A stretch of DNA of 64,000 nt, from contig SYLG01000042.1 in the NCBI GenBank assembly GCA_005808665.1, forward strand, positions 1-64,000. Direction: 5' to 3'. The DNA comes from Planctomycetia bacterium. GTDB taxonomy: Bacteria > Planctomycetota > Planctomycetia > Gemmatales > Gemmataceae. The translations under genes were made by a program, and so were the position numbers. Positions 51,149 through 58,648 of the stretch are shown piece by piece. The notes below the pieces were generated by a model, which saw only the letters and a list, made by a program, of their open reading frames with translations, did not search any database and was not told the origin of the DNA. Numbering within the stretch: position 1 is the first letter of the stretch; each line of letters begins with the position of its first letter.

Positions 51149-52708
51149 ATGTGTCGTGGGGGACCAAGGATGTCTACTCGCTTTACTGCCTTACCATTCG
51201 TTTTGCTTTTCTCGGTCGGATTCGGCCTCAATAGTAGTGTTCCTTCTCTCAGGGCCCAAAATCCAATCCCTGCCAAGGAGCTGATTGGAGGGGTCGACTG
51301 GCTAAACACTTCCAAGCCAATCAGTCTAAGGGCCCTAAAGGGAAAAATTGTCCTTCTCGATTTTTGGACACTTTGTTGCATCAACTGCATTCACATCATG
51401 CCCGACCTTGAAAGGCTCGAAAAGAAATATTCCAAAGAATTGGTGGTCATTGGTATCCATTCTCCAAAGTTTGAAAATGAAAAGAGTTCGGAAAACATAA
51501 AGAAAGCAATCCTGAGATATGAAATCAAGCATCCGGTCGTAAATGATGCCAACAAAGCCATTTGGAACACCTATGGAGCAAACTGGTGGCCAACCATTGT
51601 CCTCATAGACCCGGATGGCAATGTGGTGGGGGCGAAAAACGGTGAGGGTAATTTCGCCCAATTTGATTCGGCCATTGCTAACCTCGTCGAAAAATTTACC
51701 GCCAACGGGAAACTGAAACTGGGTGAGCCGAATTGGGACCTCCTCAAGGAATCCAGCCCTGAAAAGCTTCGTTTCCCAGGAAAGGTCATTACCGATCCGA
51801 TTTCAAACCGGATTTTTATTTCCGATAGCACGAACCATCGCATTGTCATTACTGATAAAGCCGGGAAGACACTTGATGTGGTAGGTGGGGGCGGCTCGGG
51901 CAGTAGCGATGGCGATTATTCTTCTGCCCGGTTTAACGATCCTCAAGGGTTGGCAATCAAAGGAAATCTACTTTATGTCGCCGATCGAAAAAATCACCTT
52001 ATCCGAGTGATTGACCTCGACAAAAAAACGGTCAAAAAAATAGCCGGAACAGGAAAACAAGGGAAACTTACTGAACCAACGCGGGGTAAACCACTCGCAA
52101 TAGGATTAAATAGCCCTTGGGACCTTCTTATTCACAAAAACCAGCTTTTCATAGCCATGGCCGGGCACCACCAAATCTGGGTATTGGAATTGGATCGAGG
52201 CCAACTCCGTATTTTTGCCGGGAATGGCACCGAAAACATAAAAGATGGCCCGCCTGGCCAAGCGAATTTCGCCCAACCCAGCGCATTAGCCACCGATGGG
52301 AGTAACCTCTTTGTTGCGGACAGTGAAACCAGTTCCGTCCGGGCGGTTCCCTTAACCGGCCAAGGCAATGTAAAGACCCTTGTCGGTTCTGGATTATTTG
52401 TCTTTGGGGACATTGATGGCATGGGGCCAAAAGTCCGACTGCAACATGCCTTGGGCATTACCTGGCTTGATGGCAAATTGTTTGTTGCGGATACCTACAA
52501 CGACAAATTGAAAACGCTCGATCCCAAGACCAAAACCGCCAAGGAGTTTCTCACGGGATTTGATGAACCGGGGGGCGTATTTGCTTCGGGTGGACTCCTT
52601 TATGTCGCAGATACCAACAACCACAGGATCATGATTGTGGATCCAAAAACAAAAACGGCAGACAAATTGTCCATTACAGGGTTGGAATTACCCAAATTGA
52701 CTGATTAG
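51149..52708 (+). CDS. secreted thioredoxin-like / NHL-repeat fusion protein
   Basis: A 519-residue protein with a signal peptide. The TlpA-like thioredoxin domain (about 45-200) carries LLDFWTLCCINCIHIMPDLE (Cys77 and Cys80 as CxxC). A C-terminal six-bladed NHL propeller follows (about 210-519), with ISDSTNHRIVITD, VADRKNHLIRVIDLD, VADTYNDKLKTLDPK and VADTNNHRIMIVDPK. The architecture is that of human NHLRC2. The substrate is unknown. GGAGG four to five bases before the ATG supports this start; another ATG is at 51170. The gene lies 28 bases before the DUF1501 gene and may be its partner. Confidence 0.9.
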   Translation: MCRGGPRMSTRFTALPFVLLFSVGFGLNSSVPSLRAQNPIPAKELIGGVDWLNTSKPISLRALKGKIVLLDFWTLCCINCIHIMPDLERLEKKYSKELVVIGIHSPKFENEKSSENIKKAILRYEIKHPVVNDANKAIWNTYGANWWPTIVLIDPDGNVVGAKNGEGNFAQFDSAIANLVEKFTANGKLKLGEPNWDLLKESSPEKLRFPGKVITDPISNRIFISDSTNHRIVITDKAGKTLDVVGGGGSGSSDGDYSSARFNDPQGLAIKGNLLYVADRKNHLIRVIDLDKKTVKKIAGTGKQGKLTEPTRGKPLAIGLNSPWDLLIHKNQLFIAMAGHHQIWVLELDRGQLRIFAGNGTENIKDGPPGQANFAQPSALATDGSNLFVADSETSSVRAVPLTGQGNVKTLVGSGLFVFGDIDGMGPKVRLQHALGITWLDGKLFVADTYNDKLKTLDPKTKTAKEFLTGFDEPGGVFASGGLLYVADTNNHRIMIVDPKTKTADKLSITGLELPKLTD

Positions 52709-54440: not shown

Positions 54441-56324
54441 CTAATCCGCCCTGGCGCCTTTTGCGGATCGGAGGGAAGCTATGAACCGGATACCCAGGTT
54501 TAGGACCATTACAAAAGCCAACAGGACCAAAGCACCCGCAAAGGCAAGTTTTTCCTTGTCTTCGTATCCTTCCGATGAATAATAGTAGATATAATAGGTC
54601 AAAAAAGGCGTTGGTTCATTGAGGCTCTTTGGCCAAAAATCCGTATTGCCAGCCGTGAATAGCAAGGGTGCCGTTTCCCCCGCAACCCGGCTAATGGAAA
54701 GGATTACTCCGGTAACCACTGCCGGAAGGGCGGCTGGCAACAAAACCCGAAGGGCCGTTTGGGCCTGGGTCGCCCCCAAAGCATAACTGGCCTCGCGAAG
54801 GGTGCCTGGAACAAGTTTGAGTGCCTCCTCAGAACTTCGCATGACGACGGGAATCATCATCATTCCCAGGGCAAAGGCCCCCGCCCAGGCGGAATCGGTC
54901 TGCATTGGCCTGACGATTATCGTATAAGCAAAGATGCCTATGATTATAGATGGAGTTGAACCCAATATGTCACCGACAAATCGAACCAGGGGAACAAGGC
55001 GGCTGGAGCGAAATTCCGAAAGAAACAGTGCTGAGAAAATGCCAATTGGCACCCCAAATAAAGGTGCAAGACCTACCATCGTAAGGGTACCCAGAATGGC
55101 GTGTCCCAAACCCAATGGTGGTTTACTTGTAAAGAACGCCCAATCCAGGCTTTGTATACCCCTGTAAGCGACAAATCCCAAAATATTGAAAAGTGGCAGG
55201 AGCAAGAGCAAAAAACCAAACCCCATCAATACCGTCATGCACTGGTTAATCAATTGATTTTTCCAGGCAAAGCGGGCCACCGCCCGTCTTAGTAATCCAC
55301 CTAACTCGGCCCGACGGGCGGCACGAACGGCTGGTTTTTCCGGCCGTTCAAGGGTGGCCATTTTGCCTTCAAAAATTTCCGGCGCCTTGGGTTCTGCCCG
55401 CGAGGAACGCCAAATCAACAGCCTTGCAACACTATTTACCACAAGGGTAACCAATAAAAGAGCCAAACCAAGTTCGACCAAAGCAGACCGCTGCATATCG
55501 GTCATGGCCCCTGCCAGTTGATTGGCAATGACGCTGGGAATGGTAGCGGCTGCGGCATCGAGTGCAGGGAAATTAACGGGGCCCAAGGGACTGTTCCAGG
55601 TCGTGAAATGGATTTGGGGCATATTGCCAATGACCATTGCCACGGCCATGGTTTCCCCCAAAGCACGGCCCAGGGAAAGGAAACTCGCCCCCAAAATTCC
55701 AGGCCAGGCATAAGGCAACACAACCCGGCTGATCATTTGCCATCTCGTGGATCCAAGGGCGATGGCACCTTCCCTTTGGGACATGGGAACCGCTTTGCAG
55801 ACTTCGTAACTAACCGAGGTAAGAAAAGGTGCAATCATTACCGCCAAAACAATTCCTGCAGTTAACATTCCCCTACCGGTATCGTTTTCGGCTCCAACGG
55901 CTTTGAGAAGTGGTTGAAGTAAGGGAACAACAAAGAAAATTCCCCAAAATCCGTAAATGACACTGGGAATGGCCGCCAAAAGTTCAATCAGGAACATGGC
56001 AGGCCTGGCCCATCTGCGATGGGAAATTTCACTCAGGAAAGTGGCCGCGGCCACACCCAGGGGAAGAGCAATAAACATCGCAATCGCGGAGGTCATCAGC
56101 GTTCCATAAATGAATGGAACGGATCCAAATTTTTCCTGGGGGGGATTCCAGTCCGTTTGATAAAGGAAGGAAAAGCCGAATTTAGTAATGCTTGGAAGGC
56201 TGGCTTTTACCAACAGGGCGATGAGCAAGAGTAGCAGGGCAGGCCCTACCAAAGCTGCGGCATAACAGGCAAACCGGAAGCAAAAATCGCCCCATTCTTT
56301 CAGAATATTTGCCCGTTTCGGCAT
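54441..56324 (-). CDS. pstCA: phosphate ABC transporter permease, PstC fused to PstA
   Basis: One 627-residue chain holds both permeases that are normally separate. The first half (about 1-300) is PstC: FLYQTDWNPPQEKFGSVPFIYGTL, LSEISHRRWARP, the cytoplasmic EAA-loop segment EGAIALGSTRWQMISRVVLPYAWPG and GRALGETMAVAMVIGN. A basic linker (about 312-350) follows. The second half (about 360-627) is PstA: NILGFVAYRGIQSLDWAFFTSKPP, EASYALGATQAQTALRVLLPAALP and SRVAGETAPLLFTAG. Each half has about six helices. A single polypeptide would thus form the whole channel. The frame is open from a TTG at 56345; AAAGG eleven bases before the ATG at 56324 favours the latter. It follows pstS by about 22 bases. 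No pstB is in this window. Confidence 0.93.
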   Translation of the reverse strand: MPKRANILKEWGDFCFRFACYAAALVGPALLLLLIALLVKASLPSITKFGFSFLYQTDWNPPQEKFGSVPFIYGTLMTSAIAMFIALPLGVAAATFLSEISHRRWARPAMFLIELLAAIPSVIYGFWGIFFVVPLLQPLLKAVGAENDTGRGMLTAGIVLAVMIAPFLTSVSYEVCKAVPMSQREGAIALGSTRWQMISRVVLPYAWPGILGASFLSLGRALGETMAVAMVIGNMPQIHFTTWNSPLGPVNFPALDAAAATIPSVIANQLAGAMTDMQRSALVELGLALLLVTLVVNSVARLLIWRSSRAEPKAPEIFEGKMATLERPEKPAVRAARRAELGGLLRRAVARFAWKNQLINQCMTVLMGFGFLLLLLPLFNILGFVAYRGIQSLDWAFFTSKPPLGLGHAILGTLTMVGLAPLFGVPIGIFSALFLSEFRSSRLVPLVRFVGDILGSTPSIIIGIFAYTIIVRPMQTDSAWAGAFALGMMMIPVVMRSSEEALKLVPGTLREASYALGATQAQTALRVLLPAALPAVVTGVILSISRVAGETAPLLFTAGNTDFWPKSLNEPTPFLTYYIYYYSSEGYEDKEKLAFAGALVLLAFVMVLNLGIRFIASLRSAKGARAD

Positions 56325-56346: not shown

Positions 56347-57408
56347 TTATTGCCCCAATGGACTCAAAGTTGCATTTATTTTTTCTACCAGGACTTTTGG
56401 TAACAGAGGGTAGTGTTTTTGGGCGCAAAGGGCCTGGCCAGGTCCAATGGCATATTGGACAAAACCCTTTATGGCTTCTGCCTTTGATTTTTCCATTTTG
56501 GTTTGCACAACCAGCCAAACTGTCCCGCATACGGGATAAGAATCCTTGCCTGGTTGTTGCAGAAGGCTGAAAACCAGAGTATCCGGAATGGTTTTCAGGT
56601 TTGCAACGGCGGCTCCTGTGGTTTCCAGGGAGGCACCCAGAAATGCGGTTTTATCGGCATTCTGGATTTTCCCACTTTTAAGAGTCTTTTTCTCCAATGC
56701 ATAGATCAACTCGACATAACCGATGGCACCCACCTTGTCCCCGACCAGCTTTGCAACTCCGGCATTTTTGGGAGCCTGCTGGCCGACGGGCCACTTGGGC
56801 TGGGTGGATGCGCCTACTGTCTCTTTCCAGGTTGGGCTAATCAAACTGAGATAGGAGGTCCAAATGTGGCTCGTTCCACTGCCATCGGCACGGGCGCAAA
56901 CCGTAATGTTTGTATCGGGAAGGTTTGCCCCGGGATTGAGTTTGGAAATGGCAGGGTCATTCCATTTGGTGATTTTGCCGAGAAAGATATCCGCAAGAAC
57001 CTCTCCCGTAAAGTTCAAAGGGTCTGCCAATTCCGGGAGGTTGTAAATGGGGACCACCGCACCCATGGCAAGGGGAATCTGGAGGATCGCATCGATTCCA
57101 CCTGCTTTTTGAATGTGTTCCGGGGTAAGGGGCGCATCAGAACACCCAAAATCGCGTTCCCCAGCCAAAAGTTTTTGGACACCATCCCCCGATCCTGTAA
57201 CCTGGTAATCCACCTCGGTGCCTTCGTAGGCCCCTTTCCATAGCTCCATGATGGGGCCAATGAAGCTGCTGCCCCCACCCCGAATTCGGGTTGCAACCAA
57301 GGATCCCTTCGCATTTTTTTTGCCGACCTCTCCGCCACATCCGGCAAGAAAGGCACATGCCAAAATTCCCAAAAGAAAAACTCTACGAGTAGAAAGCACC
57401 CAATTCAT
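56347..57408 (-). CDS. pstS: phosphate-binding lipoprotein PstS
   Basis: The 353-residue periplasmic binding protein has a lipoprotein signal (FLAGCGG, Cys24) and the phosphate-binding pattern: RGGGSSFIGPIMELWKGAY, VTGSGDGVQKLLAGERDFGCSDAPLT, ARADGSGTSHIWTSYLS and a C-terminal IKGFVQYAIGPGQ segment. It delivers phosphate to the fused PstCA permease encoded immediately downstream. I looked for a Pho-box-type repeat before the start and saw none. Confidence 0.95.
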   Translation of the reverse strand: MNWVLSTRRVFLLGILACAFLAGCGGEVGKKNAKGSLVATRIRGGGSSFIGPIMELWKGAYEGTEVDYQVTGSGDGVQKLLAGERDFGCSDAPLTPEHIQKAGGIDAILQIPLAMGAVVPIYNLPELADPLNFTGEVLADIFLGKITKWNDPAISKLNPGANLPDTNITVCARADGSGTSHIWTSYLSLISPTWKETVGASTQPKWPVGQQAPKNAGVAKLVGDKVGAIGYVELIYALEKKTLKSGKIQNADKTAFLGASLETTGAAVANLKTIPDTLVFSLLQQPGKDSYPVCGTVWLVVQTKMEKSKAEAIKGFVQYAIGPGQALCAQKHYPLLPKVLVEKINATLSPLGQ

Positions 57409-57519: not shown

Positions 57520-58648
57520 CTAATCAGGATCGGCCCCAACCTTTATGGGTGCTTTCCCCGAAGCCTTCATTTTGAGGTAGGATTGAATGAACGGATCCAA
57601 ATCCCCATCAAGCACCTGCATCACCTGGGAGGTGGCATGGCCTGTGCGAACATCCTTGGCCAGGGTGTAGGGTTGCAGTACATAGTTCCGGATTTGAAAT
57701 CCCCATGAAACCTCACCCTTTTCGTCATAAACCTTTTCCGTCTCGGCTTTGCGCTTGTTTTCCTCAATTTTGTAGAGTTTGGCTTTCAGCATTTTATAAG
57801 CCATGTCATCGTTTTTATGTTGACTGCGTTCTGAACGGCTTTCCGCCGCAACCCCCGTGGGTTTATGAATGTAGCGTACTCCGGATTCGGTTTTGTTCTG
57901 GTGTTGACCTCCCGGACCACCCGAGCGGAAAGTTTGTCGTTCCAAATCATCGGGACGCATGTCGATTTCAATGGTTCCATCTATTTCGGGAGTCACATCG
58001 ACAGCTGCAAACGATGTATGCCTCCGGGCGTTGGAGTCAAATGGGCTGATTCGAACAAGCCTATGGATGCCCGATTCGCTTTGAAGGTGACCGTAGGCAT
58101 AGTCGCCCACGATACGGACGGTGGCACTTTGAATTCCTGCCTCATCATTTCGCAGTTCATCAACCATTTCCACGGTCAATCCGTGTCGCTCTCCCCAACG
58201 AGTATACATCCGAATGAGGATTCCAGCCCAATCGCAGGCCTCAGTTCCACCCGCCCCCGCTTGAACTCTCAGGTAGGCATTGCTTGCGTCCTGGGGCCCG
58301 TTGAGGATCGACCGAAGTTCAAAATCCTCGAGTGAGAGGGCAAAGCGCTCCCGTTCTCCCTGGAGTTCCATTTCAAGCGATGGGTCCTCCTCGGATAGCT
58401 CGAACAAAGCCTGCACATCCCCCAGGGCGTTTTCCAAATCCTCGAAAGGTTTCAAAATGCCGCTAATGGGTTTGAATTGGCTTATGACCTGTTGAGCCTT
58501 TTCTGAATTGCCCCAGAAGTCGGGTGCTGCCTGTTTTTCGAGAAATGCTTCCCGCTGTTTTCTTTTTCCAGAAATGTCAAAGAGAGTCCCTCAAGAAGGC
58601 CAATCTTTGGGTAAATTCCTGTACCTGTTTTTTCGTTTCCGGATTCAT
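57520..58648 (-). CDS. prfB: peptide chain release factor 2, with programmed +1 frameshift
   Basis: RF2 ends translation at UGA and UAA. Translation starts at the ATG at 58648 (MNPETKKQVQEFTQRLAFL), runs 23 codons and reaches CTT TGA C (58582-58576), the classical slippery stop. An AGGGA element lies just upstream, as in the E. coli gene. After a +1 shift the frame continues DISGKRKQREAFLEKQAAPDFW to the stop at 57520. The product of about 375 residues has the anticodon-like SPF (about 201-203) and the catalytic GGQ (about 246-248, SGGPGGQHQNK). This autoregulatory shift keeps RF2 levels matched to UGA reading. Confidence 0.96.
58576..58597 (-). promoter_or_regulatory. prfB programmed frameshift site
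   Basis: On the minus strand the order is an AGGGA Shine-Dalgarno-like element, about four bases, then CTT-TGA-C. The ribosome stalls at UGA when RF2 is scarce and slips one base forward on CUU/UUU. The sequence matches the canonical bacterial arrangement, although the internal Shine-Dalgarno element is shorter than the AGGGGG of E. coli. Confidence 0.9.

Follow-up and report, generated by a model that had tools for sequence, protein, structure and literature searches.

A fused PstC-PstA phosphate permease in the planctomycete family Gemmataceae, with its candidate PstB ATPase encoded elsewhere in the genome

The window analysed here, a stretch of 64,000 nucleotides at the start of a contig from a planctomycete of the family Gemmataceae, carries on its minus strand a gene for a fused PstC-PstA permease of 627 aa (pstCA; 54441..56324). 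The frame begins with an ATG at position 56324 and ends with a stop at 54441, and its translation contains no internal stops; PstC and PstA, usually though not essentially separate polypeptides, are here a single chain. The curated NCBIfam model for PstC (TIGR02138) matched residues 16-306 with 409.7 bits against a cut-off of 196.45, and the model for PstA (TIGR00974) matched residues 361-616 with 387.8 bits against a cut-off of 193.45, so that both halves score about twice their own equivalog cut-offs. The PstC half (55407..56279, minus strand; 285.5 bits, over cut-off) corresponds to residues 14-316 of E. coli PstC, and the PstA half (54477..55244, minus strand; 255.3 bits, over cut-off) to residues 10-289 of E. 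coli PstA; hydropathy indicates about six membrane helices in each. A first-pass annotation of this DNA had read a single uninterrupted frame with a PstC-type half followed by a PstA-type half, each with its own EAA-type loop, directly after pstS; comparison with the permease families bears this out, and the strand, which had not been given, can be added.

When each half was compared with the model of the other half in an own-genome search, the cross-matches reached 133.7 and 144.9 bits, below cut-off; these weak matches indicate that the halves are distinct permeases, with PstC ahead of PstA as is usual. That both halves might match the same permease, the outcome which would have undone the fusion reading, is ruled out, since the cross-matches are far weaker than the scores with the halves' own models. 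Apart from pstCA, profile searches of its own genome found no full-length PstC or PstA that exceeds the cut-off. A permease pair on contig C153, which gave weak cross-matches, is of the sulfate type (CysT) and lies with its own ATPase in a separate cluster.

EAA-type coupling loops were read in the sequence of both halves: KAVPMSQREGAIALGSTRWQMI in the PstC half (55728..55793, minus strand), with V179, P180, G191, and W195 invariant in 43 fused proteins, and KLVPGTLREASYALGATQAQTAL in the PstA half (54750..54818, minus strand), where P506, R510, A515, L516, G517, and T523 are invariant. R220 and E224 of the PstC half and R546 and E550 of the PstA half are likewise invariant in the 43 fused proteins. 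In E. coli PstC and PstA, the arginine and glutamate of the RxxGE region are required for transport; we take the four invariant residues of pstCA to be their counterparts.

The gene for the phosphate-binding lipoprotein PstS (56347..57408, minus strand; TIGR00975, 288.9 bits, cut-off 205; lipobox LAGC, read in the sequence) lies immediately upstream of pstCA, separated from it by a gap of 22 bases. The next gene upstream, prfB (57520..58585, minus strand; TIGR00020, 412.5 bits), encodes release factor 2 and is not a part of the transporter; the order prfB-pstS-pstCA is kept in both other species of the genus. At 58576-58582, this prfB has a CTTTGAC site of the classic kind for programmed +1 frameshifting, in which the TGA is in frame. 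Downstream of pstCA follows a convergent DUF1501 gene; farther along, at 51149-52705, a thioredoxin-like domain fused to NHL repeats adjoins a DUF1501 gene. No pstB was found among the genes neighbouring pstCA, as had been noted in the first-pass annotation.

The junction of the two halves had been described as a short basic linker, a description that needs revision in part. E. coli PstC aligned on residues 11-311 of pstCA and E. coli PstA on residues 339-615; because the PstA alignment begins at residue 339, the basic stretch AELGGLLRRAVARFAWKNQL (about 339-357) represents the native N-terminal tail of PstA, and the truly extra linker comprises only about 28 residues (about 312-338; 55311..55391, minus strand). 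With about six helices per half, the C-terminus of PstC and the N-terminus of PstA would face the same side, that of the cytoplasm, and the linker is predicted to be cytoplasmic and probably flexible. An AlphaFold2 model built with the 43 fused sequences as input (mean pLDDT 85.9, pTM 0.84) is poorest in a loop of the PstC half (238-256) and in the linker at 318-326, where pLDDT falls below 50; the join appears as a short disordered stretch adjoining the basic N-terminal helix that belongs to PstA itself. Among the three species of the genus the frame is intact through the linker, without the stop or frame break that would have spoken against a fusion, and segment 306-357 aligns without gaps or indels. 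For the closest species pair, this segment shows a dS of 0.83 and a dN of 0.138, a ratio of about 0.17, compared to about 0.04-0.05 in both permease domains; this ratio and the gap-free alignment demonstrate that the linker is coding and constrained, although more loosely than the domains, and thus under purifying selection. Nevertheless, no other part of the protein is as poorly conserved or as poorly ordered as the linker, and relatives differ in its length (31 to 94 residues), as might be expected if the chain were cleaved after synthesis, or if an internal start at the linker produced separate functional PstC and PstA proteins; this is improbable, since the frame is intact family-wide, with nearly all copies free of stops or frame breaks, and no sequence feature demands cleavage.

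From the missing neighbour the first-pass annotation had concluded that the unit is incomplete. This conclusion has to be abandoned: a single ATPase over the PstB cut-off is present elsewhere in the genome (contig C56, 1676-2515; TIGR00972, 384.4 bits, cut-off 343.2), followed by phoU and a gene for a PhoB-like response regulator. The assembly is at draft stage (186 contigs), and pstB and pstCA are assigned to one organism by binning; the placement is supported because two other species of the genus have a matching pstB (93% and 86% identical). In all three species pstB is located on a different contig from the prfB-pstS-pstCA group. In relatives, intact clusters contain pstS, pstCA, a PhoR-like sensor kinase gene, and pstB, followed by phoU (loci L101, L109, L110, and L114); pstB is divergent from pstS in L104, L106, L108, and L117; and in genomes G010, G012, G052, and G087 it lies distant from pstCA on the same large contig. 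An unlinked pstB is a recurrent layout in the family. In genus g36 (G080-G086), PstB is 74-76% identical to the C56 type, and the PstC-type permeases are only weakly similar (34-38%) and encoded in shorter frames, which looks as though another permease had taken the place of the fused one or the fused one had never been gained. Since pstCA does not lie beside pstB and the genome has many other ABC ATPases, the permease could in principle work with a different ATPase or import an oxyanion other than phosphate; this is very unlikely, given that only one ATPase exceeds the PstB cut-off, that in relatives with linked genes it is this PstB that accompanies the fusion, that the partner gene encodes PstS, and that the sulfate-type permeases on C153 are clustered with an ATPase of their own. 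With its ATPase present elsewhere in the genome, the system is best understood as an ordinary phosphate importer with a gene fusion.

The same fusion was sought in related planctomycetes, and both halves were found in one frame in about 57 of 95 family genomes (43 with a single full-length match, 14 with two matches in one frame); for this count, the script required each frame to contain two domain matches in order and without overlap, part was counted by eye, and many cases were checked singly. The two-domain criterion was adopted because long frames in other planctomycetes (L100, 608 aa; L070, 654 aa) hold one permease domain each; frame length alone was for this reason rejected as a sign of fusion. 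The genomes with the fusion include the single-contig genomes G010, G052, G071, G074, and G087. The fusion is a family-wide trait and not peculiar to one organism. Some Gemmataceae genomes (G008, G027, and G033) carry a second, unfused pst set. In one relative (G037, contig C41; L138) the pstCA region is split over two overlapping frames, by assembly error or in a broken gene.

Among 294 genomes sampled across the phylum, PstC and PstA were as a rule an unfused pair, with two confirmed exceptions outside the family: G300, from another family of the same class, and G175, from another class; a single scan of genome contigs yielded unfused pairs from three other phyla. In a tree of joined PstC and PstA sequences, the family fusions and G300 formed one group with full support, and the G175 fusion fell among unfused genes from other families (SH-aLRT 98). 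A single origin of all fusions was rejected: the tree requires two changes, and the AU test argues against one clade (p = 0.017), with the reservation that the grouping had come to light on a first tree before it was put to this test. At least two separate fusion events occurred in planctomycetes, one in the Gemmataceae and one in another class. That an error of assembly or sequencing produced the long frame, by removing a stop between separate pstC and pstA genes, could be argued from the draft status of the source and the split frames in G037, and has practically no chance of being correct in view of the family-wide count and its single-contig genomes, the constrained linker that is intact in three congeneric species, and the supported clade of the family's fused proteins.

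The fused pstCA of G300 (contig C29; L118) is accompanied by pstS and nested within the Gemmataceae clade. Since G300 alone among 80 genomes of its own family has the fused gene, horizontal transfer from the Gemmataceae is likely. The PstC-PstA fusion of G175 (L119 and L148) is independent; it is probably shared by the congener G196 (L152 and L153), in which contig ends interrupt the gene.

Taken together, it is highly probable that pstCA encodes the membrane part of a PstSCAB-type phosphate importer in one chain, served by the PstB of contig C56. The complete transmembrane part of the importer would then be one polypeptide, consisting of PstC, a short cytoplasmic linker, and PstA, as the first-pass annotation had proposed in assigning both permease halves to a single protein. 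The lipoprotein PstS would bind phosphate outside the membrane and dock on the PstC-PstA pseudo-dimer; on the cytoplasmic face, each EAA loop would seat one PstB of a homodimer supplied by the unlinked pstB-phoU-phoB locus, and the channel would be switched by ATP binding and hydrolysis in the manner of the E. coli transporter. Sequence, motifs, partner genes, and predicted fold all speak for this mechanism. Family membership alone suggests that phosphate is the transported substrate. The fusion would have arisen early in the history of the family, when neighbouring pstC and pstA genes were joined in frame; its sole obvious effect would be that the two halves are made in a fixed 1:1 ratio and assemble together.

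A search of the open-access literature, which takes in few subscription journals, brought up no publication that describes planctomycetes with PstC fused to PstA. A more far-reaching reading, which we regard as rather doubtful, is that a family-wide fusion and an independent second one in another class are undescribed in print, and that the joining made it less necessary for pstB to stay in one operon with the permease gene, which let the two genes drift apart several times. The understanding of phosphate import is unchanged by the pstCA fusion; it provides a clean example of the repeated fusion of adjacent transporter subunit genes. A natural single-chain Pst permease of fixed stoichiometry would be a convenient object for structural and single-molecule studies, both of phosphate import and of Pst-PhoU-PhoR signalling.

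Among solved structures, the best fold matches were the PstC and PstA chains of E. coli PstSCAB (PDB 9k3x, 9k3y, and 9k3s; 37-38% identity, target TM-scores 0.81-0.88), which are also the nearest solved chains by sequence; both halves of pstCA align with them at near full length (174-180 bits each) and share their fold and motifs, yet PstC and PstA are two chains in E. coli and one chain here. Only FbpB of Thermus thermophilus (9j4r_A) gave a fold match covering almost the whole chain, with 598 aligned columns and a query TM-score of 0.61. Like pstCA, the ferric-ion importer FbpBC (PDB 9j4r) is a type I importer with both membrane domains on one chain, whereas its substrate differs and identity is just 18%. 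Fused membrane domains are thus already known in type I importers; in ThiP-type permeases of this importer type, the two membrane domains are also fused. Mycoplasma PstA homologues of about 650 aa are single long Pst permeases with two membrane domains and without a separate PstC; in a lineage unrelated to planctomycetes, they would represent another independent fusion.
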